From the NCBI GenBank assembly GCA_944392765.1, contig CALXXU010000016.1:1-40812 (forward strand): a stretch of 40,812 bases of DNA, read 5' to 3'. How positions within the stretch are numbered: the stretch's first letter is position 1; every line of letters starts with the position of its first letter. The notes beneath the pieces were generated by a model, which saw nothing but the letters and a program-made list of their open reading frames with translations, searched no databases and had not been told where the DNA came from. This document shows, piece by piece, positions 1 through 40,384 of the stretch. Origin of the DNA: an uncultured Anaerobiospirillum sp. (GTDB lineage: Bacteria; Pseudomonadota; Gammaproteobacteria; Enterobacterales; Succinivibrionaceae). The position numbers were made by a program, and so were the translations under genes.

Positions 1-1
1 A

Positions 2-344
2 GGTGTTTGGCCGTATCGCCGATTATGTCAGCTTAATTTGGATGCACGATGGACTAAGAAAAATAATAAAAGATTTTTCGGATTTAAACTCCATACTCTA
101 ACCGATGCTGTTACTAAAATTGTTTTGCATGATATTTTCACACCTGCAAACATTCACGATGTAAACCAGTTGCTTGAGTTGTGTAATCACGCTCCAGAAT
201 CAATGGTTAAAATTTATGCTGATTCTGGTTATTGCAGTGAAGATAGAGAGCAAACAATGTCAGAAAGTGGTTTAAAATCGATGTTTATTAAACGTCCTTA
301 TAGTCATCGTTCTTTAACATACGATGAAAAGATTGAGAACAACA
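2..344 (+). pseudogene. IS5-family transposase, N-terminal/middle part (split gene)
   Basis: The reading frame contains the IS5-family block DARWTKKNNKRFFGFKLH, where relatives have DARWTKKxGKSxxGYKxH, followed by KIYADSGY, whose Asp is the second residue of the DDE triad. The frame is open to near the window start, so the real N-terminus lies to the left. It is disrupted at 344 by the nested element. Joined to the fragment starting at 2159 and removing one target-site copy, the codons run in phase (GAG AAC AAC AAG CGT), so the gene was intact before the second insertion. It can no longer make an active transposase. Confidence 0.8.
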
Positions 345-2158
345 CATGTTCTAAAAATTAAGAAGCGTCAAAACACTGCCAAAATGGCTTAAATATCAAG
401 TTTTTGCCGTTCCAGAGCAAGTGTCTTGCGCTTTAGCTTAAAACAAGGCATAGTGCAACAAAAACAAACAGCCGAGCCATGGTTGGTCGGCTAAATAAAG
501 ATAAAAGCACAGCACTATGCCCAACCTTAATTTTCCGCAAAACCAAGCCAAATCTCAAGCCATTGACGCCTCTTCTACCGCTGCTCAAGCTCGCCAGCAC
601 AGCAATACTGTTCTTGATCAGCAGGAGGCCTGTTTTGACCATATACCTCTAACCATCATGAGTCGGCAGAAGTTTACGGCCCTCCAGGCAGCGTCAGGGG
701 TTAGCATCAGGCACCGCCTAGTTGACTTCAGGCTTTTGGTCTCAGCTGTACTCGCAACAACTGCCGACCAGAAGCTGTCCTACGGCACTGAGAACGGTTA
801 CGACGTTGCTGACATTGCGGGGCATTACAATGCGTTAGCGAGAGCCCGTGGCTTGTCCGAGTTAACTGCTCCAGCTATTGAGTTCCATCTCAAGAAACCT
901 GAGTTCACTGCGCTAATGCTGATGGTATTTGAGCACTTGACTGCTCAGAAGCTTAAGGTTGGCATAGAGGATGCCGACGTTAAAAAGGTTCTAGCCTTGA
1001 TTTCTTCGGCTGTTGGCAAACCAATTACAGATCTACGCGCCACGGATGGGTGCTATTTCTGCGTTGCTGCCAGCTTGGCTAAGTGGTTTCCAGCTAGCCG
1101 CACAGCGCACAAAGAGGGCTCTAAGGGCGCCGCTCAAATCGGGATTCAGGCATGCCTCAGCTTAAAGAGCAAAGTGTTCATTGCTGCTGAGATAACCGGG
1201 GGCACTGCTTACGAGCCAAACTATGTGCCCATTGATCCAAATACCATCACGCTCGCCGATGCTGCATTTGGCACGTATGCCAGCTTCGTTAAATTCGAGG
1301 ACAATGATGCGTTCCAAGTTGCTAAGGGAAGGAGCAATCTAGCGGCCAAGGTTTGCGAAGCCTATGTTGACGGCAAAAAAGTCAAGGACATCAATGGTAA
1401 GAAGCTCAAAGAGTTCCTGCGCTATGATGTTGGGCAGCGCATTGAGCTCGTCATTGAGGGCGAATGCAGGACTGAGAGCGTGATCGTTGTTGACAGCAAT
1501 GGCGTTGCGACTGTGACAAAGCCAACTCGCAAAGTCAAACTGCGAGCCATACGCATTTTTGAGCCTGGTAAAGGCTGGACATGGGTATTGACTAACCTCC
1601 CCAGCTCAGTACCAGCCGCAGCCGTGTTAACGCTAATGCGCTTACGTTGGACCATTGAGCGAGCCTTTTTAGACCTCAAGTCCCACAACAATCTCCGTGG
1701 CGCACGTACCAATAGCCGACACCTGGCCCAAACCATGGTATGGGCAAGCATGATTACGGCCTTGATCAAGTTAGTGACCATCAGATGTGCTGAGCTGCGT
1801 TACGGTCGATCACTATCTCTCCGCCGCTGTCATAAGCTGGATCAGCACGAGCAAGAGAAGCCTAGTTGGTCAATCACAGTAATCACCTTGCTCTTTGGGC
1901 GCGCTTTGCCGGGGGCAAGCTTTGCTGAAGTGCTACACAGATTAGGAAGCAGCAAGCATACGGGGGTAAGCAAGCCTTCCGCAAAGAATCGTAGGAGGAT
2001 GATAGCCCATCACCTAGTTTGCTTGATTTTTGAGCTTGGCGGTGATGATGACAATGAGGTGCTTCTTCTACCATATAGGCCTATGCTTAAAAGCGCATAG
2101 CAAGCGATGTTTATGCGGTTTTTTCGCGATTTTATCCGTCCTTAATTTGGAGAATATG
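345..2158 (+). mobile_element. Complete IS4-family insertion sequence nested in the IS5 element
   Basis: The element is flanked by the direct repeat AGAACAACA at 336-344 and 2159-2167. If the outer TG is counted with the duplication the repeat is 11 bp. The ends form an imperfect inverted repeat: the left end reads CATGTTCTAAAAATTAAG and the right end, on the minus strand, CATATTCTCCAAATTAAG. A start with CAT and a 9-12 bp duplication are typical of IS4-family members such as the IS231 group. It contains a single transposase gene. A hairpin (470-492, arms AGCCGA/TCGGCT) lies just upstream of the transposase start; such structures often limit transposase translation from outside transcripts. 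The element looks complete and possibly active. Confidence 0.85.
517..2100 (+). CDS. IS4-family transposase
   Basis: A 527-residue DDE transposase that cuts and joins the ends of the surrounding element. The first catalytic Asp is probably in ATDGCYF (about residue 174) and the second in TLADAAFG (about 243). The family signature around the catalytic Glu is visible as LRWTIERAFLDLK (about 383), corresponding to Y/W-x2-R-x3-E-x6-K. Length and the long beta-strand insertion between the second Asp and the Glu fit the family. The start at 517 has no strong Shine-Dalgarno sequence, which is common for transposases. No internal stop or frameshift is seen, so the gene appears functional. Confidence 0.88.
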   Translation: MPNLNFPQNQAKSQAIDASSTAAQARQHSNTVLDQQEACFDHIPLTIMSRQKFTALQAASGVSIRHRLVDFRLLVSAVLATTADQKLSYGTENGYDVADIAGHYNALARARGLSELTAPAIEFHLKKPEFTALMLMVFEHLTAQKLKVGIEDADVKKVLALISSAVGKPITDLRATDGCYFCVAASLAKWFPASRTAHKEGSKGAAQIGIQACLSLKSKVFIAAEITGGTAYEPNYVPIDPNTITLADAAFGTYASFVKFEDNDAFQVAKGRSNLAAKVCEAYVDGKKVKDINGKKLKEFLRYDVGQRIELVIEGECRTESVIVVDSNGVATVTKPTRKVKLRAIRIFEPGKGWTWVLTNLPSSVPAAAVLTLMRLRWTIERAFLDLKSHNNLRGARTNSRHLAQTMVWASMITALIKLVTIRCAELRYGRSLSLRRCHKLDQHEQEKPSWSITVITLLFGRALPGASFAEVLHRLGSSKHTGVSKPSAKNRRRMIAHHLVCLIFELGGDDDNEVLLLPYRPMLKSA

Positions 2159-2403
2159 AGAACAACAAGCGTTCGAGTGTAAGATGCAGGGTAGAACACA
2201 TCTTTGCTGGACTAAAGTTAAATCAAGGCTTCTTGCCAAAATCAAAATCAACAGTTTGTATAAAAGGAGAATGTGACCTTGTTGTTTTGGCATACAACAC
2301 TAGCAGATATCAAGTTATAATTGATGGACGCTTAAAGTATCCTAAATTTTTAATAAAAGAGAAAAATCGCTCAATTGGTGATTTAGTTAGAGTATCTGGT
2401 TGA
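2159..2403 (+). pseudogene. IS5-family transposase, C-terminal part (split gene)
   Basis: Continues the frame of the fragment ending at 344. It starts with the duplicated target bases, reads NKRSSVRCRVEHIFAGLK and ends at TGA 2401-2403. The Glu in RVEHIFAGLK is the expected third catalytic residue of the DDE triad. About 75 bases follow to the presumed element end. It has no start codon of its own and is inactive as it stands. Confidence 0.75.
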
Positions 2404-2478
2404 TTAACTACTAGTAGTCTAGATTGGTACTGAAGATGCCGCACTACAATTGTGCATAAGTTAATTTACAACAGCTCC

Positions 2479-2496
2479 CAGTCATAGAAACTCCTT
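2479..2496 (-). pseudogene. Start of a further operon gene cut off by the IS5 element
   Basis: On the minus strand an AAGGAG ribosome-binding site (2491-2496) stands 5 bases before ATG at 2485-2483, 29 bases after the stop of the last FtsZ-like gene. The reading frame enters the insertion sequence after about two codons and soon stops. The leader resembles that of the FtsZ-like gene starting at 3528: about 35 of 38 bases from 2490 match those from 3533. I infer that the operon once continued with at least one more gene, probably a related paralogue, now displaced to the left of the window or lost. Confidence 0.5.
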
Positions 2497-2514
2497 ATGT
2501 TGGTTCAGTGGGGC

Positions 2515-3528
2515 TCAAAAGCCTAAGACCGTGCAGTTGCGACCTGTTCTCGAACTTTTTTGCGTTGTCTCAAAGCTCTCAATTTGCACAAACAAGGCTA
2601 GGATCGCGCATCCTTGTGCTAAGAATCGGGAGTCACAACAGCTGCAACTACACAGGCAATTAATGTCTGGCCCAATGAATTTGTGAATTTCAGGAAGAGT
2701 TAACTCAGCTTGGTCCTCGATGGTATGCTCAAACAGCGCATAAGCTTGCAGGCGAGCAGCACGCGAGCCACCTAAAGCCGCACGCCAAGGCGAGTTGAGC
2801 GCTTGCGCCACTACCTCAGTTACAGCATTTTCGCCCTGAGCCTGGCCCCAGCTCACCAATACTTTTCCGCCCCGCGTCACCAGCGCGAGCTGCTGCTCAA
2901 AAGAAAAAGCACGTTGTTGCCAAGAGGCGACAATGCCCTGCACGGTATGGAACAAGCGCGCGTTGACCAGCTCAAAGGCTTTGCTAACTGACATAGCGCC
3001 ATCACGAGGTGACAAAAAATCATTGTTGTCATGCACAACTAGAGCATCGACATGCGGGGCTAGCTCACACAGAAACCATTGAGCCACCAGCGCATGCTTC
3101 TTGCCCTCAAAGGCAAAAGGCAGCGTCACCAGGGCCAAGACTTCAATGCTAAGTTTGCGGGCGATTTGAGCTATTGCCAGACTTGCACCACTACTGGTGC
3201 CCCCGCCCATACCAGCGACCACGATCACTAAATCTGCACTAGATACGATGTACTTAAGCTGTGTTCGGCTCTCCTCAACCGCCTTCAGCCCCTTTTCGTG
3301 GTTAAAGAAAGTGCCAACACCACCGGTAGTCTTGGCTCCAATTTGCACCTTTTCAGGAACCGTAGCACGCTCAAGGTCGCGTGCATTGGTGTCAACCACC
3401 ACCAACTGGACGCCAGTCAAACCGTGCTCCCTCATAAATTGCACAATCCTAGTCCCGCCGCCGCCCACGCCAATCACTTTGATCACCGGAGCGCCCACTC
3501 CGTCTCCATCAGCCTGATCTTCGTCCAT
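2515..3528 (-). CDS. FtsZ-like protein Z6: GTP-binding loops kept, catalytic T7 loop lost, Cys-rich strand
   Basis: A 337-residue FtsZ homologue. The ATG at 3528 is chosen because AAGGAG lies 5 bases upstream; an earlier in-frame GTG overlaps that site. The nucleotide-binding loops are the best kept of the paralogues: GVGGGGT (20-26), the T3 region KTTGGVG followed by NHEKG, the tubulin-type signature GMGGGTSSG (106-114) and PFAFEG (137-142). The T7 loop, NLDFSDV in the canonical protein, is replaced by RAFSFEQQL (206-214) with no aspartates, so it should not trigger GTP hydrolysis in a neighbouring subunit. The C-terminal domain is shortened and carries five Cys between 291 and 298 (CLCSCSCC) and another at 307. 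No FtsA-binding tail is present. A GTP-binding but non-catalytic partner of FtsZ is an inference. Confidence 0.82.
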   Translation of the reverse strand: MDEDQADGDGVGAPVIKVIGVGGGGTRIVQFMREHGLTGVQLVVVDTNARDLERATVPEKVQIGAKTTGGVGTFFNHEKGLKAVEESRTQLKYIVSSADLVIVVAGMGGGTSSGASLAIAQIARKLSIEVLALVTLPFAFEGKKHALVAQWFLCELAPHVDALVVHDNNDFLSPRDGAMSVSKAFELVNARLFHTVQGIVASWQQRAFSFEQQLALVTRGGKVLVSWGQAQGENAVTEVVAQALNSPWRAALGGSRAARLQAYALFEHTIEDQAELTLPEIHKFIGPDINCLCSCSCCDSRFLAQGCAILALFVQIESFETTQKSSRTGRNCTVLGF

Positions 3529-3663
3529 TGCCACTCCTTATGTTGGTTCAGCGAGGCTCAAAAGCCCAAAGTCACGAGGCAGGCCCGCGAAGGATTAAGC
3601 CTATCTACGCAAGAGCTGGGTAAAGCTCTCTCACCCCCGTTATCTTGGCCCTCAGCTTGACCG
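3529..3663. other. Spacer Z5-Z6 with duplicated leader
   Basis: It carries the Z6 ribosome-binding site and a leader segment (about 3533-3571) that recurs almost unchanged at 2490-2528, next to the cut-off gene start. A related motif, ACTCCTTAAGCTTGGTTCA on the plus strand, lies before the gene starting at 7065. No separate promoter is seen. Confidence 0.5.
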
Positions 3664-4782
3664 CTAGTCCGAAGGTTTAGCCCGTACCTCGCGTAAAAGG
3701 CTGCTTAGATCAAATTGGCGCACAAGTCCGTCATTAGATTGCTCATCCTGCGGCGCTGCGCCGCCATCAGTGGTGAAAATGGTTACGACGATCTGGTCTT
3801 CAGCAAGATTGTCATCCCAGACCAAGCTGAACTTGACGTCAGCGTCTTCGTCAGCGTACTGCTCAATCTTGCGATTAATCTGCTCCAACTTGGCAAAGGG
3901 GAAGTTTCGATTCATCCGTACGTGAACCATGCTCTTACGAGCTTTGCTCAGTGGAATTTGATCAAGCAGCGGATAACGCAAGGCTTGCTCGATGGCATCA
4001 CCAATGAAGTTATCCCCTGACGCTCGGGCAAAGCCAACATAAGCACGCCCTGCCCTCCAAAAAAATTTGAAAATATCCCAAATCTGCAAGTTGATTAATC
4101 CGGACTTGGAAATAGGCTCTATCACTCCATCCACGACATGAAGCACTGCGTCGTTAACTGCGGCACGGGCATCGCGCAGCTTGCAGCCAGGTTGCTGCAA
4201 GAACTTATTGGGATCCAAAACCAAAAGCGCATTCAAACTCGCCTCCAGCTCAGTCATGCCGCACTGGGCGCAATTAATTCGATCAATTGCCTCGAAGCTA
4301 AAAGGCGGAATCACCACGCCAATGGTAAAAGCATCCGTGTCATGCGCTACCCGCGCGATATCGGTGGCAATGCCCGTCGCGCTATCTCTTCCTAGGACTG
4401 CCACCACAAAAAGCAAATCATAAGGCTTCAAGATAGCCCGCAATTGGTCCCGATCAGCTTGCGCTGCGATGAGATCAAGTGGAGTCAGATTTTCTTCGTC
4501 AAGGTCGAGATGGATCTCATAACGCAACAGCACTTGCGTGTCGGCCCCCGAGCGCTCTAAGGCGGCCTTGTCCTTGTCTATTGCGAGGAAGTCAAAATAG
4601 TCGTACGAGGTGTGCCGCCGCAAATAGTCCAGCAGTTCGCAGGCTTCGCTACCGGCTCCCACTATGCCTATCCGGCATTCTCTATAGCTCACGCTTTCAC
4701 TCGCTTCATCCGGCTGCTGCGCTGGCTTATTGGCAGCTGCTGGACTACGCAAGATCGAGTCAATCGTTAAATTAGCGTGCAT
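3664..4782 (-). CDS. FtsZ-like protein Z5, strongly degenerate GTPase site
   Basis: A 372-residue FtsZ homologue. The start at 4782 (MHANLTIDSIL) is preferred over a GTG four codons earlier because GGTGAGGA lies 6 bases upstream and the Z4 protein begins similarly (MPEQLVIDSIM). The nucleotide loop is VGAGSEAC (41-48) instead of GVGGGGGN, the GGGTGTG signature has become GRDSATG (131-137), and the T7 loop is NLQIWDI (231-237), keeping only the second Asp. The C-terminal FtsZ domain is recognisable from NRNFPFAKLEQINR and DDNLAEDQIVV. It ends in FDLSSLLREVRAKPSD, which resembles the FtsA/ZipA-binding tail of E. coli FtsZ (DIPAFLRKQAD) more than the tail of this organism's own FtsZ. It is probably a non-GTPase modulator that can still reach the membrane tethers; this is inferred. 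Confidence 0.8.
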   Translation of the reverse strand: MHANLTIDSILRSPAAANKPAQQPDEASESVSYRECRIGIVGAGSEACELLDYLRRHTSYDYFDFLAIDKDKAALERSGADTQVLLRYEIHLDLDEENLTPLDLIAAQADRDQLRAILKPYDLLFVVAVLGRDSATGIATDIARVAHDTDAFTIGVVIPPFSFEAIDRINCAQCGMTELEASLNALLVLDPNKFLQQPGCKLRDARAAVNDAVLHVVDGVIEPISKSGLINLQIWDIFKFFWRAGRAYVGFARASGDNFIGDAIEQALRYPLLDQIPLSKARKSMVHVRMNRNFPFAKLEQINRKIEQYADEDADVKFSLVWDDNLAEDQIVVTIFTTDGGAAPQDEQSNDGLVRQFDLSSLLREVRAKPSD

Positions 4783-4835
4783 GGCATTCCTCACCTAAGA
4801 CCTGTTCTGATTTTCTGCGCGGCGATTATTGATTA

Positions 4836-4864
4836 GATCCAGTGTCAACTAACGGCACTGGATC
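4836..4864 (-). other. Perfect 9-bp inverted repeat between Z4 and Z5
   Basis: Arms GATCCAGTG and CACTGGATC with an 11-base loop lie in the 128-bp gap between two FtsZ-like genes. On the minus strand it is followed by TAATCAATAATC, not a run of T, so it is more likely an mRNA processing or stabilising hairpin than a terminator. Confidence 0.4.
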
Positions 4865-4910
4865 GGGAAAGCGCCTAGGGCGGGCCCAGGCGGGGAAAGG
4901 TTGGCCTTGC

Positions 4911-6083
4911 TTAGACCTTCTTGTGGAAGATCAGTGGCATCTCAGGATCGGCCCAATCGTCGTTGACCAGAGGTGGCACATTGCGACGGCTGTTAGCATT
5001 GGAGCGCACTGCGGCCATTGGGTTCTCATTCTTCGGAGCATCGCTCCCAGAAATGCCAGCGATCAAAAGGCTAATGACGATCTGGTCTTCAGCCATCTTG
5101 TCATCAAAGACGATACCGTACTTGCAGTCAGCCTCTTCGTCGAAATATTCCTGGCGCTCGCGGTTAATCTGCTCCCACTTGGCAATTGGGAAGTTGCGGT
5201 TAACGCGGGCGTTAACGAACAGACCGGATGCTTTCTTGAGGTCCACCTGTTCTAGCAGCGGATAACGCACGGCCTGCTTCACGGCATCAACCACGAAGTT
5301 TTCGCCTGAGGCTTGAGCAAAGCCTATTGCAGCCCGGCCCCGCCCCTTAAAAACGGTTAGGACATCAGAAAAATCAAGGCAGATATATCCAGTCTCCACG
5401 CAGGGCTCGATTAAGCCAAGCAAGATATGAAGCGCAACAGAGTTAACTTCGGCGCGGACATCGCTTAGCTTGCAGCTCGTTTGTGGTAAGAGCCGATTGG
5501 GATCAATGGCAAAGAGCGCATCCATATTGGCTTCAAGCTCAGTAAGGCCGTATTGGGAGCACTCAAGACGCTCTTGACTATCTCTACTCAACGGTTGTAA
5601 TCCAATGCCCATAGTCAAAGCACTGGTAGCTCGCGCGACCTGTGCCAGGTCAAGCGCCGCCCCCACAGCAGAGCGCTCCCCAAGATCAGTTAGCACGTAG
5701 ACCATATCAGAGCCAGCCAATAGCTGCTTAATTTCGTCTAAATCTGCAGGATCTGTTAAGCGAGCAAAATCATGCTGGGCCACAGCATTTGCGGCAACTG
5801 CGGACTCACCCCCTGTGCGTTTCAACAGTACTTGGACCGTGGCTTGCGAGCGTTTGAGCGCTTCCAAATCCTGATCAACTGCAATGAAATTGACGAAATC
5901 GTAGTGCGTATGCGCGCTCAGGTAGCGCACCATATCACAGGCCGCACTCCCCACCCCCACGAAACGCACTACAAAGGAGGCCACCAAATCAGTCCACTTT
6001 TTGCTGGTATCAGTCTTGGTCCCAGTCGGTAGCTCACTAAAGGGCTTCAACATAATTGAGTCGATCACCAATTGCTCGGGCAT
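4911..6083 (-). CDS. FtsZ-like protein Z4: catalytic T7 loop and FtsA-type tail kept, GTP signature lost
   Basis: A 390-residue FtsZ homologue starting at MPEQLVIDSIM, 13 bases after Z3 ends, behind AGGAGAGGA; ATG 6089 is an alternative start. The N-terminal nucleotide loop is GVGSAAC (43-49) and the GGGTGTG signature is GERSAVG (135-141), so GTP binding is probably lost. The synergy loop is intact: CLDFSDV (235-241), with both catalytic aspartates (237, 240). The C-terminal domain and the extreme tail DDWADPEMPLIFHKKV are nearly identical to canonical FtsZ, down to the DNA, but the roughly 100-residue disordered linker is reduced to about 40. Predicted role: it docks its T7 face onto a GTP-bound FtsZ subunit but cannot accept the next subunit properly, so it acts as a cap or an activator of GTP hydrolysis. 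This is inference from loop chemistry. Confidence 0.84.
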   Translation of the reverse strand: MPEQLVIDSIMLKPFSELPTGTKTDTSKKWTDLVASFVVRFVGVGSAACDMVRYLSAHTHYDFVNFIAVDQDLEALKRSQATVQVLLKRTGGESAVAANAVAQHDFARLTDPADLDEIKQLLAGSDMVYVLTDLGERSAVGAALDLAQVARATSALTMGIGLQPLSRDSQERLECSQYGLTELEANMDALFAIDPNRLLPQTSCKLSDVRAEVNSVALHILLGLIEPCVETGYICLDFSDVLTVFKGRGRAAIGFAQASGENFVVDAVKQAVRYPLLEQVDLKKASGLFVNARVNRNFPIAKWEQINRERQEYFDEEADCKYGIVFDDKMAEDQIVISLLIAGISGSDAPKNENPMAAVRSNANSRRNVPPLVNDDWADPEMPLIFHKKV

Positions 6084-6096
6084 AAACATTCCTCTC

Positions 6097-7065
6097 CTAA
6101 GCCTGTAACGGCTCAGCCAAACCACTCACGAACAGCGTCACTACCATCTGGTCTTCGGCCATCTGGTCATCAAAGACGAGACCGAATTTGCAATCAGCCT
6201 CTTCGTCGAAATATTCCTGGATCTCGTGGTTAATTTGCTCCCACTTGACAAGTGGGAAATTGCGGTTGACATAGGTCTTAACTATCAGCCCCGTCGCGCT
6301 CTTTACATCCGCTTGCTCGAGCAATGGCGCGTGAACCGCGCGCTGCACTGCATCTTGAATAAAGTTAGCCCCACGACCAAAGCCTTGTCCGAAGCATGCA
6401 TAGCCTCGTCTTCGCATGATCACCAGCAAGTCTTCATACCCAAGAGCAATATAGCCCCCTTCATAATCAATTGCCACGATGGCTTTAATGGCATCAAACA
6501 CCCAGGCATGGATAAAGGCATCGAGATCAACGCCCACAACTGAGGAATTGATTTTTTCCTGATCGATCACGAAGATAGAATCTACTGCGTCTTTAAGCTG
6601 CGCTATTTCAGCCTGAGCATCAGCATTGGACTTAATGACAAAGGCGAGGGTAAGTGCACCTTCATTTTGAGCACTTTGAGCTATCCTAACGGCGCATTGA
6701 ACATCGGCTGCATTATCAAGCGCAGTCACAAGGAAGATCAAATCCGAACCACGGAGTGCTTGCTCAAGCTCAGCGCACGCTCTGTTCGCAGCAGCGTAAG
6801 CTACGCCTGAAGCATTACCAGAGCCCAAGTCTGAGCCAAAGTCTGCTCCAATCTGAATCTTGCACGGTGCCGTCGAACGTGCTAACACCGCGCTATCACT
6901 ATCGACCGCCACGAAATCAAGGAGATGAGCATTTCTCAGCTGGGCGTTGATGAGATATTGCAGCAAAGTACAACCACCACTACCCACTCCGACCACCCTA
7001 ATACTGCATTCCTTTGCAAAGTGGTACCCAGAAGATAACTCTTCTGGTGCGGCGAACTCGTCCAT
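6097..7065 (-). CDS. FtsZ-like protein Z3, shortened, both GTPase motifs degenerate
   Basis: A 322-residue FtsZ homologue. The start is clear: AAGGAG stands 5 bases before ATG 7065. The first 70 residues are almost identical to the start of Z2 (GVGSGGC at 26-32), including 105 identical bases. The GGGTGTG signature is replaced by DNAADVQ (117-123), the PFSFEG helix region is missing, and the T7 loop is ALGYEDL (207-213), keeping only the second Asp. The C-terminal domain is well kept (NRNFPLVKWEQINHE, DDQMAEDQMVV). The protein ends directly after the domain, with no linker and no FtsA-binding tail. It might lie in filaments as an inert subunit. It has a shared ancestor with the first half of Z2 and has decayed more. 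Confidence 0.82.
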   Translation of the reverse strand: MDEFAAPEELSSGYHFAKECSIRVVGVGSGGCTLLQYLINAQLRNAHLLDFVAVDSDSAVLARSTAPCKIQIGADFGSDLGSGNASGVAYAAANRACAELEQALRGSDLIFLVTALDNAADVQCAVRIAQSAQNEGALTLAFVIKSNADAQAEIAQLKDAVDSIFVIDQEKINSSVVGVDLDAFIHAWVFDAIKAIVAIDYEGGYIALGYEDLLVIMRRRGYACFGQGFGRGANFIQDAVQRAVHAPLLEQADVKSATGLIVKTYVNRNFPLVKWEQINHEIQEYFDEEADCKFGLVFDDQMAEDQMVVTLFVSGLAEPLQA

Positions 7066-7094
7066 GAAAACTCCTTAAGCTTGGTTCACCGCAA

Positions 7095-7152
7095 TTTAGT
7101 AGGGGATTCCTCGGAGTCGCCTACTAAAGCGTCCGCCGAGGGGGTAGCCCCC
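7095..7152 (-). other. Hairpins in the Z2-Z3 gap
   Basis: Two inverted repeats fill the 141-bp gap: TTTAGTAGG/CCTACTAAA (7095-7103 and 7120-7128) and GGGGG/CCCCC (7140-7144 and 7148-7152). Neither is followed by a T run on the minus strand, so full termination is unlikely. They may set different mRNA levels for Z2 and the genes after it. Confidence 0.35.
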
Positions 7153-7206
7153 ACTAAATCACGGCGAGCCCGATATCTTTATGCTCATTGCGCTCTTAGC
7201 TCCAAG

Positions 7207-9621
7207 CTAATCGCAATGAGCTGAAATGCCACTCAAGCAAACCTTGATAACGCATTGATCTTCGGCCAGGTACTCATCATCAAGGATTAATACCAAGCGC
7301 GCCGGTACTCCCAAGCGCTGTGCTAGCAGTTTATTAACCCGCTTTAATGCAGTCACAGTAAAATTGCGGTTACCATAGACGCAAACTAACAGTGATGATG
7401 CCGTTTGTACTTCTTGCACCGAGAATAGGAGAGGTTGGAGCGCCCGCGCCCAAGCATCTTCAATAAACTTTTCGCCTTGGCCGACTCCAGAGCTAATGAT
7501 AGTGTGTCCATTGAGCAGCATTCTGAGCTCGGCCAAGTTAAGGTTAATGAACTCGCCTGCTCTTACGGCATCAAGCATCATTGTGACGGCATCGCTAAAG
7601 ATAGAATTGGCTTCGTAGCAAGCGTTAACCACGCTGATATTCTGGCCCAAATTGGTTAGCAGCAAATCGTTGTCAATCACGATGTAGCTGTCAGAATGAG
7701 CCTTGATCTCATTGAGGCATTGCTGCGCCTTTAGTGCACGCTGCGCCCCTTCAAAAGAAAAAGGCTTAATGACCACAGCCACCGTTAGAGCTCCAGATTC
7801 TTGCGCCATTTGAGCAAGCACTGGCGCAACGTTTGAGCCGGACAAACCTCCAGCTCCCGTCGCCACAAATACGAGCTCAGCTCCATCCACATATGGCTGA
7901 AGCTGAGCCCGAATAAGATCAGAGCCCTGACCTTGCTCTGCTTCATCAATAATTTCGGAACCGAGTAAAACCTGAGGAACTTCCTGCAAGCCATCAAGGC
8001 TATTTTCTTGCATATCAACAGCGATAAGCTTAACCGGGGCAAGCTCTTTATCACTGCTTCCTTGAGTATTAAGCCCTGGAATCGCGTTAAGTTGATGCAA
8101 GATCAAAAAACGCAGCATCTTGCAGCCACAGCCGCCCACGCCGAAGATAACCGTCTTAGGGGCTGATGCCACATGTTTTGAGGCTTGTTGCCCAAGCTCG
8201 TCCGCCAAGAGCTTCTCTTCACCAAGGCGCCGATAAATCTGCTGAGCGGTGCCATATGCTAGCCCCAGCTCCGTTTGCACCTCTGTTAGAGTGGGCGTTT
8301 TATTGTGTAACTTGCGATAAGCCTGAACCAAGGCAACTGCTTGCGCATACGTATCCTCACAAGCTCGTTGGGGCGCACAGTCGATCTTGTCCCAAGCTGG
8401 TGATGAGGCACTGCGGGGCAGCTTACGCGCATCAGCATCCGAAATTGCTTGAGGCTTAATCTTGCGGTGGAAAATCTGAGGCTTATCATCATCTAACTCG
8501 TCATCATGACCCAGGCTTGACTGCCGAACCAAGGTTTGGGGCGGCGCCGCACGAAACAAGCCTGATGGCCCCTTACTCAGCGGCGCGGTGTTGAAAGTCT
8601 CTGCTTCCCTTTGGTTCTCGCCACTAGAGGAGTTCGGCGCGCGCTTCGTCATAAAGATGGTCATGACGATCTGGTCTTCGGCAATCTGGTCATCAAAGAC
8701 GATACCGTACTTGCAATCAGCCTCTTCGTCCGCGTAATTCTGAATCTCGCGGTTAAGCTGCTCCCACTTGGAAATGGGGAAGTTGCGATTGATTAGAGCA
8801 GCGACCAAAAGACCGGTAGCACGCTTGATGAGTTCGGGCTCCACTAAGGGTGAGTGCAGCGCGCTTTGCACCGCGGCTGTCACGAAGTTGGGGCCCCTAC
8901 CTTCACCACAGCCAAACATAGCGCGTTCACAGTTGTGCGTTATCGTCAGCACATCCGAAAAATCCAGGAGGCCGATATAACCTGGAAATGTGATCGGATA
9001 GGTGATTCCCCTAACCCCTTGCAGCACAGCTTCGTTCACCGCAGCCCAAGCTTGCTGAAACGCACCTTCTTGAAGCTGATCTGACACCAGCTTGTCTTTG
9101 GCAATCACAAAGCAGGAGTCGACCAGCTGCTCTAGTGCCTCAAGCCCCTGCGCGGCGCGCGTTAGTCGCTGTGGCTCTTCTTGAGACAAAGGGTATGAGG
9201 CAAAGCATAGGGTCAAAGCCCCCGTTGCTTGTGCCAGCTCAGCAATGATGGGAGTAGCGCCAGAGCCCGTCGCACCACCCAGCGCGGTCACGATGATGAT
9301 CAAATCAGAACCACAAAGCGCTTGCTTCAGCTCAGCACGCGTGCTGTTCACAGCAGCGCAAGTTGCGTCTGAAGCACTACCAAAGTCTGAGCTAAAGTCT
9401 GCTCCAATCTGAATTTTGCACGGCGCTGTCGAGCGTGCCAAAACCGTACTGTCACTATCGACCGCCACGAAATCAAGGAGATGAGCATTTCTCAGCTGGG
9501 CGTTGATGAGATATTGCAGCAAAGTACAACCACCACTACCCACTCCGACCACCCTAGTCATGCATTCCTTTGCAAAGTAGTACCCAGAAGATAATTCCTC
9601 CGTTGCGGCGAACTCGTCCAT
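7207..9621 (-). CDS. Z2: FtsZ - winged-helix-like - FtsZ fusion protein
   Basis: An 804-residue protein starting at ATG 9621, with AAGGAG 5 bases upstream; a longer frame from 9711 lacks this support. Domain A (1-328) is an FtsZ with GVGSGGC (26-32), a near-normal signature GGATGSG (115-121) and a T7 loop LLDFSDV (218-224) with both aspartates, so it may still hydrolyse GTP. A linker ends in DDELDDDKPQIFHRKI (373-388), a copy of the FtsZ C-terminal peptide now internal. Residues 423-475 look like a winged helix and align without gaps to the FtsK gamma domain in the part TLTEVQTELGLAYGTAQQIY; a KfrA-like fold is the alternative. Domain B (488-800) is a second FtsZ with GVGGCGC, a weakened signature GGLSGSN (591-597), PFSFEG, and a T7 loop NLNLAEL (693-699) lacking both aspartates. 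It is the first gene of the paralogue operon. DNA binding is inferred. Confidence 0.85.
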   Translation of the reverse strand: MDEFAATEELSSGYYFAKECMTRVVGVGSGGCTLLQYLINAQLRNAHLLDFVAVDSDSTVLARSTAPCKIQIGADFSSDFGSASDATCAAVNSTRAELKQALCGSDLIIIVTALGGATGSGATPIIAELAQATGALTLCFASYPLSQEEPQRLTRAAQGLEALEQLVDSCFVIAKDKLVSDQLQEGAFQQAWAAVNEAVLQGVRGITYPITFPGYIGLLDFSDVLTITHNCERAMFGCGEGRGPNFVTAAVQSALHSPLVEPELIKRATGLLVAALINRNFPISKWEQLNREIQNYADEEADCKYGIVFDDQIAEDQIVMTIFMTKRAPNSSSGENQREAETFNTAPLSKGPSGLFRAAPPQTLVRQSSLGHDDELDDDKPQIFHRKIKPQAISDADARKLPRSASSPAWDKIDCAPQRACEDTYAQAVALVQAYRKLHNKTPTLTEVQTELGLAYGTAQQIYRRLGEEKLLADELGQQASKHVASAPKTVIFGVGGCGCKMLRFLILHQLNAIPGLNTQGSSDKELAPVKLIAVDMQENSLDGLQEVPQVLLGSEIIDEAEQGQGSDLIRAQLQPYVDGAELVFVATGAGGLSGSNVAPVLAQMAQESGALTVAVVIKPFSFEGAQRALKAQQCLNEIKAHSDSYIVIDNDLLLTNLGQNISVVNACYEANSIFSDAVTMMLDAVRAGEFINLNLAELRMLLNGHTIISSGVGQGEKFIEDAWARALQPLLFSVQEVQTASSLLVCVYGNRNFTVTALKRVNKLLAQRLGVPARLVLILDDEYLAEDQCVIKVCLSGISAHCD

Positions 9622-9798
9622 GACAGCTCCTTGCGGTTTTACGAGGCAAGCTACGGCTCCAGCAATCTGCTTGCTCTCGCGCCACGCGGTCACATAAAAA
9701 CTTCGAGCCAAGCAATTTTCAGCTACTATCTAGCCTTTGGTGCCAAGCTCACTTCGACTAAATGCCATCGTTATCTTCAGAAAACTCAGTTAATCGCA

Positions 9799-9825
9799 GT
9801 TAACTTGGGCAATAACCAAGTTAAC
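9799..9825. promoter_or_regulatory. Palindromic operator or leader hairpin upstream of Z2
   Basis: Perfect 10-bp arms GTTAACTTGG and CCAAGTTAAC are separated by 7 bases. It lies about 175 bases before the Z2 start codon and about 40 bases downstream of the -10 box. A further half-like TTAAT/TTAAC motif follows at 9790-9795. It could bind a dimeric repressor or form an mRNA hairpin. Autoregulation by the winged-helix segment of Z2 is a possible but untested link. Confidence 0.45.
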
Positions 9826-9863
9826 GTGATAACCCAAGCCAACAAGGCTTAGTCTCGGATAAG

Positions 9864-9869
9864 ATTATA
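9864..9869 (-). promoter_or_regulatory. Candidate -10 box of the FtsZ-paralogue operon
   Basis: A perfect TATAAT on the minus strand in an AT-rich patch, with transcription expected to begin near 9857. No good -35 box is found at 16-18 bases (AATTCC at 17), so the promoter may be weak or activator-dependent. Confidence 0.4.
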
Positions 9870-10112
9870 GCGATTTTCACTGATAAGGAATTATTATGGC
9901 TTTTTGCTTATGTGATCGAGATCGCGAGATTAATCATATTACCGATTATAAGACTAGTCGCTCACCAAATGACAAGTGACATAGCGCAACGCGCGCAACA
10001 GGTCAGATCTTATTTTGCGAAAAAATTAGCCCCGACCACTCACAGCCATGACCGCTGCTCCCGGCGCCGACATAACCTCAATCCAGCTCCGTATCGTGCT
10101 TGACGCGCACAT

Positions 10113-10140
10113 AGGGCGGCGGCGGGGGTGGTGGGTGGGC
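10113..10140. repeat. G-rich 28-bp dispersed repeat, copy 1
   Basis: Identical to 31408-31435. It contains several G runs (GGGGG, GGG, GGG) and could form a G-quadruplex. A shorter related copy is at about 40665-40685. All copies lie between genes. Confidence 0.6.
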
Positions 10141-10259
10141 TATCTTTTGCTTTCAGGCGCGCCGCCGTTCAAGGCGCTGGGAGCAGCCTCAGCTCAAGTG
10201 GCAGCGCGGCAAGAGACCACGTGCCCGTGCACGCGGATGGCTAGCACTTTGCTGGAGCC

Positions 10260-10297
10260 CAAAGACGACAAAGCCAGTGTCGCGCTGGGCACTGGCT
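10260..10297 (-). terminator. Terminator-like hairpin after ftsZ
   Basis: On the minus strand AGCCAGTG and CACTGGCT (10297-10290 and 10279-10272) form an 8-bp stem with a 10-base loop, directly followed by TTTGTCGTCTTT. It is placed about 48 bases after the ftsZ stop. The T tract is imperfect, so some read-through into the paralogue operon is possible. Confidence 0.5.
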
Positions 10298-10344
10298 TGG
10301 TGAGCGCCTGGAACTTGCCCAGGCTCTGGTTGGGGGGCCTTAGC

Positions 10345-11721
10345 TTAGACCTTCTTACGGAAGATCTGTGGCATCTCAGGATCGGTCCAATCGTCGTTGA
10401 CCTGACCTGGCACCTGGACTTCCTTTTGTGGTTCCAGGGTGTTGGCGTAATGGTTTGGCATACCACCCATTGGCGCACCCATATTAGGACGGATGCGTGG
10501 ATCCATTTGATTTTGTGGCATCTGGTTTGGTGCTACTGCCGCAGGACGACCTGGCATCGGCTGCTGCAATGGTGGACGGGCCGCTGGTTGTTGCTGCGGA
10601 TAGTTTTGAGCGGTACGGAAGAAACCCTGCTCATTGCTCATCTGTGGAGGCACATTGCGTCGGTTGTTGGCGTTGGAGCGCACCGCTGCCATTGGGTTCT
10701 CATTCTTGGCCGAATCACCGCCGGAAATACCGGTGATGAGAATGGTAATGACGATCTGATCTTCGGCAATTTGATCGTCGAAGACGATACCGTACTTGCA
10801 GTCGGCCTCTTCGTCAGCGTAATTCTGAATCTCGCGGTTAATCTGCTCCCACTTGGCAATTGGGAAGTTGCGGTTAACGCGGGCGTTAACTAACAGACCC
10901 GTGGCACTCTTGATGTCCACTTGATCGACCAGCGGCGAGTGAATGGCACGCTGTACGGCGTCCTCAACGAAGTTCGCACCTTGACCGACGCCATTGCCGA
11001 TCATGGCATGGCCACGACCCTTCATAATCGTCAGCACGTCGGAGAAGTCGAGGTTGATATAGCCAGGTGCACTGATCGAATCGGTAATACCCTTGACCGC
11101 GTTGAGCAGCACGTCGTTAGCTTCATTGAAAGCGTTAACGATCGAGATATTAGCACCCAAGTTCTGTAAGAGCTTGTTGTTGTCAATAACGATCAGGGAA
11201 TCAACGTGTTTGGAGAGCTCCGTAATGCCAGCCTCAGCATTGATGAGGTGACGCTTGCCTTCAAAGCTAAATGGCTTAGTAACCACCGCAATCGTTAGTG
11301 CACCAGTCTCCTTGGCGATCTCGGCAATAATTGGAGCAGCGCCAGTACCAGTACCGCCGCCCATACCGGCCGTAATGAAGACCAGATCCGAGCCCTGCAG
11401 GAGTTTCTTAACGTCTTCCTTACTCTCTTCAGCAGCCTTACGACCCTTGTTAGGATCACAGCCAGCACCAAGACCATTGGTGAGCTTGACACCAATTTGG
11501 ACCTTCAGTGGGGCCGTAGAGCGATTGAGTGCTTGTGAGTCGGTATTCACAGCAATAAACTCGACGCCGCTTAAGCTCTGGTTAATCATGTGCTGCAGCG
11601 AATTGCCGCCGCCACCGCCGACACCCAAGACTCTGATCACGCAATCTTTGGCAAAGTGGATGCCAGACTCATTGTTAGCAGCGCTAGACGTCACTGATTC
11701 TAGAGAAAATTGCTGGTCCAT
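10345..11721 (-). CDS. ftsZ: Cell division protein FtsZ (canonical tubulin-like GTPase)
   Basis: A 458-residue bacterial tubulin that polymerises into the Z-ring at midcell. The start is ATG 11721 (MDQQFSLES), with GGGAG 5 bases upstream; a TTG further up is unlikely. All motifs are intact: GVGGGGGN (33-40), GLGAG in T3 (83-87), GGGTGTG (121-127), PFSFEG (150-155) and the catalytic T7 loop NLDFSDV (223-229). A disordered Pro/Gln/Asn-rich linker (333-442) leads to the C-terminal peptide DDWTDPEMPQIFRKKV, which should bind FtsA. It is longer than E. coli FtsZ (383) because of the linker. It has its own promoter and a 509-bp gap from ftsA, unlike the usual tight ftsA-ftsZ coupling. It is the clear parent of the neighbouring paralogues. 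Confidence 0.97.
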   Translation of the reverse strand: MDQQFSLESVTSSAANNESGIHFAKDCVIRVLGVGGGGGNSLQHMINQSLSGVEFIAVNTDSQALNRSTAPLKVQIGVKLTNGLGAGCDPNKGRKAAEESKEDVKKLLQGSDLVFITAGMGGGTGTGAAPIIAEIAKETGALTIAVVTKPFSFEGKRHLINAEAGITELSKHVDSLIVIDNNKLLQNLGANISIVNAFNEANDVLLNAVKGITDSISAPGYINLDFSDVLTIMKGRGHAMIGNGVGQGANFVEDAVQRAIHSPLVDQVDIKSATGLLVNARVNRNFPIAKWEQINREIQNYADEEADCKYGIVFDDQIAEDQIVITILITGISGGDSAKNENPMAAVRSNANNRRNVPPQMSNEQGFFRTAQNYPQQQPAARPPLQQPMPGRPAAVAPNQMPQNQMDPRIRPNMGAPMGGMPNHYANTLEPQKEVQVPGQVNDDWTDPEMPQIFRKKV

Positions 11722-12230
11722 TGGAACTCCCAAATCGTAAGGTACTGTGCATCTAACTTATCTGAAGACTGACGTATTATAACCTTAAAAGCCCAAAAGT
11801 AGCATACCATCCCAAGCACTGAGCGGCGGTAATTACGGGCTTGTCAAGCCTAAAACCATGCGCAATTACGCCCCTATAGCTCAAGGGCGGAGCCCTCACA
11901 AGCACCGAACGTACCAAGCTTTAACTAGGCCGAGCTGATGACCAGGCCCTTTTGGTGCGCTTGAGTGCTTTAATTGGGGGCGCTGCATACGTTTGCATAG
12001 GCACGGTCTGAGCTGCGCTCTACGTTGCGGCCTTACCCCTCAGCTTATGCTGATGGGGCTACGTAATTTTGCACCTGTACGACAAGTTAAGTGTCAAGCT
12101 GTTAGCGCGATCGCACTTAGCTCTATCGTCTTTTACGTAAGGCTTACGCTAAAGTCGCAGCTCGCCCTAGGAATAGCTATTGATTTATTTTTTTTTTGTG
12201 TGTGGGGTGTGCTGCTGCAAACGCTTACGG
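11722..12230. other. Long ftsA-ftsZ gap
   Basis: A 509-bp gap. It holds the candidate ftsZ promoter near 11776, a hairpin at 12036-12058 (CCCCTCAGC/GCTGATGGGG) and an A/T tract just past the ftsA stop (12181-12196). I see no gene. ftsA and ftsZ are usually adjacent, so separate control of ftsZ is likely. Confidence 0.5.
11776..11781 (-). promoter_or_regulatory. Candidate -10 box of the ftsZ promoter
   Basis: A perfect TATAAT on the minus strand, giving a leader of about 48 bases before the ftsZ start. The -35 position (TGCTAC at 17 bases) is poor. Confidence 0.45.
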
Positions 12231-13607
12231 CTAGAGCTCGCCCGAGAGCCAATTGCGGCTCCAGTGGTAGAGCTTGGCCAAAGTGCTATCGCTGTGGCGG
12301 CGATCGTTTTGCAGGTTATAACGGCGATGCTCTTCTTCTTTGAGCGCATAGCCAAAACGCAATAAGCCGATCGCGGTGGCGCCACTGGCGCACAGGACAT
12401 TTTGACTTAAGTCCTCAGCGCTGATATTAGGCGGCAGCACTTGATTGAAATTACACTCGACCGAACGCGGCTTACCCACCTTGATCTTAGGTTTAAGCCC
12501 ATTGGCTGCCAGCTTGCTCGTCGCCAAGTGCTCAAAGCCGGGAGTGCCGGTCACCCCGCCGGTGAAGACGTAACCACTGCCGAAGTTATCACGCATATTC
12601 TGGGAGCGCTTAAAGGTCTCAATGCGCTGCTGAATCAACTGCAAGGTGTCGATCATGCTGTAGGCGATGACATTGGCTAAGTCCTTGTAGGCGATATAGG
12701 CCACCTCTTCAGGATTGCGCGGATCGATCGGCACCTTGAGCATCATATCCTTATCTTTCTCAGGTAAGAGCTTAGGGTGCGCCACTCCGTAGTTACGCTT
12801 TAAGTACTCAGCAATCCCTAAAGGCAGGCCAAAGCGCGTCGCAATTTCGCGCGTGATGCGCGCCCCGCCATAATCAAGACCAAAGGTGTGAATCAGGCAG
12901 GACTTATCGTAGAGCGCCACATTGATCGCGCCCCCGCCCCAATCGACCAAGCACACGCCGATCGCCTTGTCCTCTTCGCTTAGCACCGCATCAGCGGCGG
13001 CAATGCCGTTGTAGATGACATGATCGACGCTGATATCACTTGAGATCATACTGATCGCGCGGCGCAGATTTTGTTCTTGATCCTCGTCGCAGGAAATAGC
13101 ATGAATGCTGACATCGAGGCGCTGGGCACTGAGATCGATCGGATTGACGATCTCACGGGTATCGCCGATCTGATAGCTCTGCGGAATGATGTGAATAATG
13201 CGCTGATACTCGCTAAAGCGATTAGCGGCAGCATTTTCGATCGCGTGCTCACGGTCAGCCTCGGTTACAGCGTGAGTAGGCACGACCGTGCCTCCTTGGA
13301 GGTTGGCCGACTTGATGTAACGCCCGGCGATACCAATATAGCAATGGGTCAGATCGCGTCCGTTTTCCTTATAGTCAGCCACCAAGAGGGCAATCTGATG
13401 GGAGAGTTTGGTCAGATCAGTGATCGCCCCATTGACCACACCCTCGGAGTGGCACTCTGCATAATAGGTCAGGCTCAAGAAGCCATCTTCGTTGACTTCT
13501 CCGGCAATCAGGCGGATCTTGGATGAACCAATATCAAGCGCCACTAAGGCGTCTTGCGTCTCGTCCTCTTGCGCCGTTGCATTCTTCTTTGAGAAAAAAA
13601 AGGACAT
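12231..13607 (-). CDS. ftsA: Cell division protein FtsA (actin-like Z-ring membrane tether)
   Basis: A 458-residue actin-fold ATPase that links FtsZ filaments to the inner membrane and recruits later divisome proteins. Visible features are the phosphate-1 motif ALDIGSSKI (about 23-31), the phosphate-2 motif LVDWGGGAINV, and a C-terminal amphipathic helix ending LYHWSRNWLSGEL that serves as the membrane-targeting sequence. ATG 13607 is preceded by GGGGAG. It is longer than E. coli FtsA (420), mainly in the segment before the amphipathic helix. It lies between ftsQ and ftsZ in the normal dcw order. Confidence 0.96.
   Translation of the reverse strand: MSFFFSKKNATAQEDETQDALVALDIGSSKIRLIAGEVNEDGFLSLTYYAECHSEGVVNGAITDLTKLSHQIALLVADYKENGRDLTHCYIGIAGRYIKSANLQGGTVVPTHAVTEADREHAIENAAANRFSEYQRIIHIIPQSYQIGDTREIVNPIDLSAQRLDVSIHAISCDEDQEQNLRRAISMISSDISVDHVIYNGIAAADAVLSEEDKAIGVCLVDWGGGAINVALYDKSCLIHTFGLDYGGARITREIATRFGLPLGIAEYLKRNYGVAHPKLLPEKDKDMMLKVPIDPRNPEEVAYIAYKDLANVIAYSMIDTLQLIQQRIETFKRSQNMRDNFGSGYVFTGGVTGTPGFEHLATSKLAANGLKPKIKVGKPRSVECNFNQVLPPNISAEDLSQNVLCASGATAIGLLRFGYALKEEEHRRYNLQNDRRHSDSTLAKLYHWSRNWLSGEL

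Positions 13608-39999: not shown

Positions 40000-40384
<385 letters not shown>

Follow-up and report, generated by a model that had tools for sequence, protein, structure and literature searches.

What might a bacterium gain from a row of FtsZ-family genes standing directly behind its canonical ftsZ? The question is raised by a 40,812-nucleotide stretch of DNA (hereafter the window) from an uncultured Anaerobiospirillum species of the Succinivibrionaceae, which is contig C16 of a 3.6-Mb metagenome-assembled genome in 180 contigs. Among named genomes its closest relatives are Anaerobiospirillum metagenome assemblies and A. succiniciproducens DSM 6400. On its minus strand ftsA and ftsZ are followed in order by p834, p322, p404, p376 and p339, five accessory FtsZ genes with six FtsZ domains, p834 holding two (p834-D1 and p834-D2); the names give the lengths of the open reading frames (ORFs) in amino acids (aa), and the likely starts lie slightly further in. 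Working from this one genome, and analysing the subunit faces from sequence, we found that the array splits into two classes with opposite half-interfaces. Residue comparisons show that class A (p834-D1, p322, p404 and p376) has lost the top (GTP-binding) face and kept the bottom face of T7, H10 and S9 together with the C-domain, and that class B (p339 and two genes of 316 and 348 aa on contig C17) has kept the GTP loops, poorly so in p339, and is without either the bottom face or the T7 residue at D212. This apparent split, together with the mosaic C-domains that accompany it, goes beyond the preliminary description of the window, which had seen the array as accessory FtsZ subunits arisen by local duplication.

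12231-13607, minus strand: ftsA, named by reading and by matches in the locus comparison
10345..11721, minus strand: canonical ftsZ, with GGGTGTG and NxDxxD intact and the C-terminal peptide DDWTDPEMPQIFRKKV
9622..10344, minus strand: spacer of 723 bp between ftsZ and p834
7207-9621, minus strand: p834, an 834-aa ORF (804 aa from the likely start) that reads D1 (class A), C-terminal peptide, linker, D2
8458-8493, minus strand: FtsZ-type C-terminal peptide of p834-D1, DDDKPQIFHRKI, recognised by eye
about 8194-8361, minus strand: linker of p834, weakly helix-turn-helix-like (best Pfam match HTH_35, E 0.055 and 0.069, under the cut-off)
6097-7065, minus strand: p322, class A, with the T4 loop replaced by ALDNAADVQCAV and the C-domain kept; C-terminal peptide not seen
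4911-6083, minus strand: p404, class A, a 404-aa ORF (390 aa from the likely start) with T4 replaced by DLGERSAVGAAL and T7 reading ICLDFSDV
3664-4782, minus strand: p376, borderline class A, a 376-aa ORF with T4 VLGRDSATGIAT and T7 INLQIWDI; C-terminal peptide not seen
2515-3528, minus strand: p339, class B, a 339-aa ORF with a GGGTSSG loop and strongly diverged T7 and C-domain

The Pfam Tubulin/FtsZ profile (PF00091) is matched over its cut-off by all five window genes, with E-values from 5e-8 (p404) to 1.5e-48 (p834), which leaves no room for chance matches. FtsZ_C (PF12327) is matched by p834, p322, p404 and p376 and not by p339, the class B C-domains being recognisable as FtsZ C-domains by profile-profile comparison alone (hhalign E 6e-7, probability 92), and the ftsZ profile TIGR00065 matches all five genes, four of them under its equivalog cut-off and p834 passing with its two domains summed. 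These profile searches, which the preliminary description had proposed as a check, bear out its account of five consecutive minus-strand FtsZ-family genes with six domains beside ftsZ, and its derivation of accessory subunits by local duplication is likewise supported. The G+C content of the five genes is 50-53%, near the 52.5% of ftsZ. It was also right that the GTPase loops are partly lost. Of the eight accessory domains in this genome, not one combines an intact T4 GGGTG(T/S)G with an intact T7 NxDxxD. Two further statements hold for part of the array. A ribosome-binding site of its own is claimed for every gene; sequence resembling such a site is discernible by eye ahead of the starts of p834, p322, p404 and p339 and is weaker at p376, and the NRNFPxxKWEQIN and DDxxAEDQ blocks, said to be common to all five and ftsZ, are found with single changes in p834-D1, p322, p404 and p376, partially in p834-D2 and not in p339. 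The C-domain and C-terminal peptide of p404 are near those of ftsZ, and such a peptide can be recognised by eye in p404 and p834-D1 and in none of the other array proteins. Pfam gave no domain other than the FtsZ types over cut-off in the array proteins of the window. That p339 is a gene truncated by insertion was rejected, since its odd C-terminus aligns with those of the 316- and 348-aa proteins and, like them, with FtsZ C-domains.

The array extends beyond the window. A search of the same genome recovered the two further FtsZ genes (316 and 348 aa), to both of which p339 is kin, at the very start of C17 directly before lpxC; the preliminary description had thus under-counted the copies, two of which lie across a gap broken by an insertion element. 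In all there are at least seven FtsZ-family genes, five on C16 and two on C17, with at least eight extra FtsZ domains, between ftsZ and lpxC, and further copies may lie inside the gap. The relevant features at the edge of the window are these:

1..2479, plus strand: insertion element with a DDE_Tnp_1 fragment at 38-361 and its right end at 2479
517-2100: nested second DDE_Tnp_1 transposase inside the insertion element
2480..2483, no strand assigned: target-site duplication AGTC, 4 bp, at the right end of the element, with a matching copy on C17 (locus L042)

This element, which from our reading we take to be IS5-like, occurs again on contig C72 beside other flanking sequence, and that copy confirms its right end. 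C17 starts with an element end that has the same terminal GGGAGCTGTT, and the 4-bp target duplication is identical on both sides. On these sequences a single insertion element appears to have C16 on one side and C17 on the other, and it is the likely cause of the contig break; the insertion site falls directly behind the start codon of the 316 gene, which is thereby disrupted in this genome. On C17 the order is 316, 348, lpxC, a 516-aa protein, ampD (Amidase_2) and an aconitase-like gene named by reading. In another species of the genus (genome G003) ftsZ is followed by three FtsZ-like genes, one of them with two domains, and then by lpxC, ampD and the aconitase-like gene; in E. coli lpxC follows ftsZ. 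An artefact of assembly was rejected on the grounds that the order from array through lpxC and ampD to the aconitase-like gene is common to G003 and that the same insertion element lies at both contig edges. The 516-aa protein (L042:3675-5225) has no Pfam match, and in G003 lpxC adjoins ampD.

Passages of two papers (PMC8936486, PMC5414002) place GTP hydrolysis between the top (nucleotide) face of one FtsZ subunit and the bottom-face T7 loop of the next, and tentatively assign filament growth to the bottom end. With the window FtsZ as yardstick for all identity values, the other FtsZs compared conserve the N-domain as much as the C-domain or more (E. coli, 60% N and 34% C). Class A inverts this pattern, p834-D1, p322, p404 and p376 having N-domain identities of 41, 39, 33 and 32% and C-domain identities of 72, 63, 73 and 46%. 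In class B the N-domains of 316, 348 and p339 stand at 60, 59 and 45% and the C-domains at 17, 17 and 21%. The T4 loops follow the same division: in place of the GMGGGTGTGAAP of ftsZ, class A has ALGGATGSGATP, ALDNAADVQCAV, DLGERSAVGAAL and VLGRDSATGIAT in the order just given, and class B has GGGTGGG in both 316 and 348 and GGGTSSG in p339. The register of the class B T7 loop differs by one residue between MAFFT and hhalign, and with either the residue at D212 is non-acidic in all three proteins; 316 may retain D209.

When the two faces are set against the remainder of their domains, class A (p834-D1, p322, p404, p376) matches the yardstick at 17, 11, 10 and 15 of 53 top-face residues versus 53, 53, 46 and 41 of 123 elsewhere in the N-domain, and at 30, 23, 32 and 21 of 36 bottom-face residues versus 52, 48, 50 and 32 of 80 elsewhere in the C-domain. 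Class B has 41/53 (316), 38/53 (348) and 26/53 (p339) at the top and 4/36, 6/36 and 3/36 at the bottom; a direct comparison of p404 with 348 gives p=7e-8 for the top and p=6e-10 for the bottom. As a reference we used 41 FtsZ rows, from which the window FtsZ, the array domains of the two species and the canonical FtsZs belonging to G003 and to G008 (a further species of the genus) were excluded. Their top-minus-rest differences run from -0.04 to 0.23, their bottom-minus-rest differences from -0.19 to 0.06, and none has a bottom identity below 0.28. Every class A domain falls under the first range, p376 barely so (-0.05), and three of the four lie above the second, p322 (0.04) being inside it; the bottom identity of every class B protein is beneath the reference minimum. 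Some domains are intermediate, namely p834-D2 (top 22/53, bottom 9/36) and, in G003, 326 and 731-D1.

Phylogenetic trees of the two domains add a second dimension, to be read with the caution that both are largely unresolved, that long-branch warnings attach to p834-D2, G003-326, p404, p376, p339 and others, that p376 and p404 are of odd composition and that the placement of single long rows is unsure. In the N-domain tree p834-D1 with p322 (99/90) and p404 with p376 (100/98) sit on long branches apart from the trio (95/89) formed by the window's canonical FtsZ and those of G008 and G003, and class B joins three array domains of G003 (98/86). The C-domain tree unites all four class A domains with the canonical FtsZs of G008 and the window (95/91). 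Class A proteins are best explained as mosaics made by gene conversion, their C-domains seemingly grouping with the neighbouring ftsZ and their N-domains not. Pairwise Nei-Gojobori estimates of synonymous distance (dS) and of its nonsynonymous counterpart (dN), made with our own script, change abruptly along the genes. Relative to the window ftsZ, p404 has a dS of 0.72 over codons 280-345 and is saturated over codons 28-195, p376 has 0.77 and 2.26 over the same stretches, and upstream of codons 280-345 the values for both are 1.9 to saturated; dS between the two canonical ftsZ genes, window species against G008, is 0.74-0.83 in the two domains. Between p322 and p834-D1 dS jumps along the gene from 0.26 to saturated and then to 2.87. 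Between 316 and 348 it is 0.64 at the top-face codons, where dN is 0.12, and 0.13 in the remaining N-domain. As judged from these codon comparisons, the jumps fit repeated partial gene conversion, partly from ftsZ. The 316 and 348 proteins share 42/53 residues of the top face and 111/123 of the rest of the N-domain, and since the synonymous distance is also higher at the top face, this lower identity reflects age and not relaxed selection.

We tentatively favour the view, while granting that it could well fail, that the array genes specify half-interface subunits, a family derived from FtsZ, which would tune the canonical filament by capping its opposite ends. Class A would dock by its bottom face on the nucleotide face exposed at the shrinking end of an FtsZ filament, with p404 and p834-D1 perhaps tethered through the C-terminal peptide that they keep, so sharing the tethers of FtsZ. 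Class B would bind GTP and add by its top face to the growing (bottom) end, where it would offer the next subunit no bottom face and growth would stop, much as with MciZ. With one class-A-like and one weaker class-B-like domain, p834 might bridge two filament ends. The balance between the classes could set filament length, turnover or ring number in Anaerobiospirillum, whose cells are large and spiral, and gene conversion from ftsZ might keep the bottom face of class A matched to the resident FtsZ. That the whole amounts to a self-made cap toolkit for both ends, with faces split between paralogue classes, a conversion-matched class A and a fused, bridging p834 with a possible DNA-binding linker, is a more ambitious version that we regard as doubtful.

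Several points weigh against the capping proposal. Gene conversion from ftsZ at the 3' end might alone be enough to make class A bottom faces look conserved; the sign of conversion is weaker for p834-D1 and p322, whose dS to the window ftsZ over codons 280-345 is 1.49 and 1.25. Tested singly, the top-versus-rest difference is significant for p322 (0.006) and p404 (0.021) and not for p834-D1 (0.18) or p376 (0.60), and the bottom-versus-rest difference is significant for p404 (0.004) and p834-D1 (0.050) and not for p376 (0.07) or p322 (0.84). The face sets were chosen by ourselves from two papers and from loop positions, the loops being named as in E. coli. On the side of the subunits, the top face of p339 is poorly kept (26/53), a recognisable C-terminal peptide is found in just two of the four class A domains, and the 316 gene is disrupted. 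Class A caps might also do little, as top-interface mutants of FtsZ are less harmful than bottom-interface ones according to a passage of PMC8936486. Finally, G008 and G009, the nearest species by FtsZ, FtsA and LpxC, have ftsZ only, followed by a spacer of 0.7-1.2 kb, and an array missing from the closest species is therefore not needed across the genus.

This last observation, along with the loss of catalytic residues, the insertion elements within the array, the severing of 316 from its start codon and a dN/dS of 0.68 over the last part of p376 and p404, a weaker sign of selection, would also accord with the array being a set of functionless, decaying tandem duplicates held open by recent conversion. 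The preliminary description had held that absence of the array from close relatives together with dN/dS near one would indicate decaying pseudogenes; we find the absence, in G008 and G009, and not the ratio. The closest pair, 316 and 348, has a dN/dS of 0.33, with a synonymous excess at p about 2e-5 in either half, which shows at the codon level that purifying selection has acted on at least these two class B genes, and p322 and p834-D1 give 0.32 over their first 110 codons. Further, all seven reading frames are open save for the one insertion in 316, even though much of their length is close to synonymous saturation, starts are preceded by sequences resembling ribosome-binding sites, and the survey of related genomes that had been suggested as a check, if negative for G008 and G009, did recover in G003 a related array with a two-domain gene of its own. 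Decay appears unlikely, even if it ranks first among the alternatives.

The surviving faces being complementary, the two classes might instead bind mainly each other, the bottom of A on the GTP face of B, forming hetero-dimers or short heteropolymers apart from the Z-ring in the manner of tubulin alpha/beta or chloroplast FtsZ1/FtsZ2. The presence of an A-like and a weaker B-like domain in the single chain of p834 speaks for such pairing, and chloroplast FtsZs do make heteropolymers according to a passage of PMC5877594. Yet a dimer of this kind would have two dead outer faces and could not elongate, and the array of G003 has only B-like and intermediate domains, with class A absent. We consider pairing of this kind quite unlikely.

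Local amplification, mosaicism, conversion from ftsZ and patchy presence in close species also resemble the traces of an arms race, and the array proteins might accordingly be decoys, inert FtsZ surfaces that soak up MinC of the same cell or FtsZ inhibitors sent by phages or competing bacteria. Class A keeps the bottom face, to which the inhibitor MciZ binds in the account excerpted from PMC8936486. That same face is lost in class B, however; none of the five window proteins has a PADLOC match, scanning viral contigs twice, with p339 and with p404 as query and with reach limited to close relatives, brought up no relative, a known inhibitor was not located at the array locus, and MinC is present in 10/10 genus genomes, with or without the array. 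We therefore judge decoys to be distinctly improbable. The two viral-contig scans, able to recover close relatives only, also led us to set aside a phage origin of the array. The SulA family is found in 0/10 genus genomes and, like MinC, shows no tie to the array, and a replacement of either protein by the array was rejected; the SlmA profile is matched over cut-off in 0/10 genus genomes, with weak matches in 9/10.

A separate cytoskeletal role, in curvature, at the poles or on DNA by way of the p834 linker, might be imagined from the helix-turn-helix-like stretch between the two FtsZ domains and from the large spiral cells, but as the HTH_35 matches are not significant and NCBIfam returns a weak unrelated match (E 0.053), while the array sits in the division cluster and two copies keep the FtsZ C-terminal peptide, we hold it to be very improbable. 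FtsK-gamma, our first guess for this linker, is unreported by Pfam at E up to 10, with filters that drop most weak matches. The sole FtsK_gamma match in the genome (L108, contig C5) falls short of the family cut-off and contains an internal stop codon that is read through.

A search of open-licence PubMed Central literature by title or abstract start found no description of such an FtsZ array, in agreement with the preliminary description, which knew of none. Agrobacterium, with three FtsZ homologues, likewise has extra FtsZ-family proteins within one genome, and a dual FtsZ has reportedly been seen in Odinarchaeota. In contrast to these two to three copies, the present array packs at least seven genes, with eight extra domains, into a single interval and divides them into opposite half-interface classes. 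In A. tumefaciens just one homologue has a linker and C-terminal peptide, as stated in an extract of PMC13170164. Chloroplast FtsZ1 and FtsZ2 are likewise duplicated and co-assemble, and ARC3, which a title cited there describes as a chimera containing an FtsZ part, is a negative regulator of ring assembly (portions of PMC5877594). Unlike the array, these are nuclear plant genes. Subunits of the chloroplast type would also be expected to keep both faces, whereas classes A and B, by their aligned residues, would each lack one; we know of no complementary loss of top and bottom faces in chloroplast FtsZs.

SulA is a capper or sequesterer of FtsZ filaments. MciZ binds the bottom interface of FtsZ and caps the filament (PMC8936486, in part). 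The action proposed for the array, the blocking of one filament end, is the same, its proteins seeming to have one competent and one incompetent face; MciZ and SulA differ in being unrelated small proteins, whereas cappers from the array would be copies of FtsZ itself. FtsZl1 and FtsZl2 of Makarova and Koonin (2010) are diverged FtsZ-superfamily proteins, with FtsZl1 showing no confident match over T6-H7 and the C-terminal parts and with C-terminal regions that are a coiled coil and helical domain or an alpha/beta region of about 300 aa, as described in section 4 of PMC2875224. In contrast to those separate families, the array proteins are paralogues of the resident ftsZ with a recognisable FtsZ C-domain.

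Work on FtsZ polarity has relied mainly on constructed mutants and small inhibitors. If the capping proposal is true, natural FtsZ copies each without one defined face would constitute evolution-tested caps for both ends, the polarity question of which end grows and what caps do would become directly testable, and the array would show the origin of a pseudo-enzyme family from a core division gene. In this gut lineage the division cluster appears to undergo local duplication and conversion.

We then examined how widely such copies occur. In a sample of 276 genomes drawn evenly from the taxonomic class, the window genome included and at least 90% completeness asked, PF00091 has no match in 14, one in 258, two in 3 and eight in the window genome, the last an undercount by one as p376 was not listed by this search; the 275 other genomes have at most two matches each. 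A search of 56 genomes of the family, again with the window genome, covered 10 of the genus (8, 5, 2 and 2 matches, and six times 1) and 46 outside it, 18 of which have two matches (one weak, under cut-off) and 2 none. In 14 of these 18 the second ftsZ shares a contig with the first, at a distance of up to about 5 kb, and the statement of the preliminary description that extra ftsZ genes are usually unlinked fails in this family. In the 11 of 14 genomes in which lpxC is inside the fetched stretch both ftsZ genes precede it, and the aligned second copies keep GGGTGTG (in one case GNGTGTG) and NxDxxD, marking them as full FtsZs. A tandem second ftsZ is thus common in the Succinivibrionaceae, with one extra full FtsZ each, and the degenerate array was observed nowhere but in the window species and, differently built, in G003. 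The 14 tandem loci are L053-L057, L090, L093-L096 and L099-L102, Succinivibrio dextrinosolvens (name inferred) being among them. Between ftsZ and lpxC in the seven genus genomes without an array there, the only candidate remnant is a 33-residue match (E 0.002) in G006.

Other observations in the genus concern single genes. The two-domain protein of G003 (731 aa, L043:6762-8957) is a natural FtsZ tandem that keeps GGGTGSG loops and has changed T7 sequences (NLSEL, TLGEL). G001 has one diverged FtsZ paralogue of 380 aa (L045:8116-9258) outside the division cluster, near a contig end and behind a peptidase-like gene named by reading. In A. succiniciproducens (G005; name inferred) a chemoreceptor-like gene (~690 aa, by reading) separates the second ftsZ from lpxC at L046, about 3911-5978. 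FtsA (window 12231-13607 compared with L044 and L046-L050) has diverged much further within the genus, at about 40-46% identity to six species, than the FtsZ (about 64-74%) or LpxC (about 77-82%) encoded at those loci. A consensus scan of 2000-12300 in the window found promoter- and terminator-like sites no commoner than in shuffles. Shortly past ftsZ there is a hairpin at 10268-10301 with 12-nt arms (92%), and the spacer holds a perfect inverted repeat of 10 nt at 9799-9825, the two being a possible terminator and operator. The far end of the window carries one RNA gene:

40000-40383, minus strand: RNase P RNA class A (Rfam RF00010, 328.8 bits)

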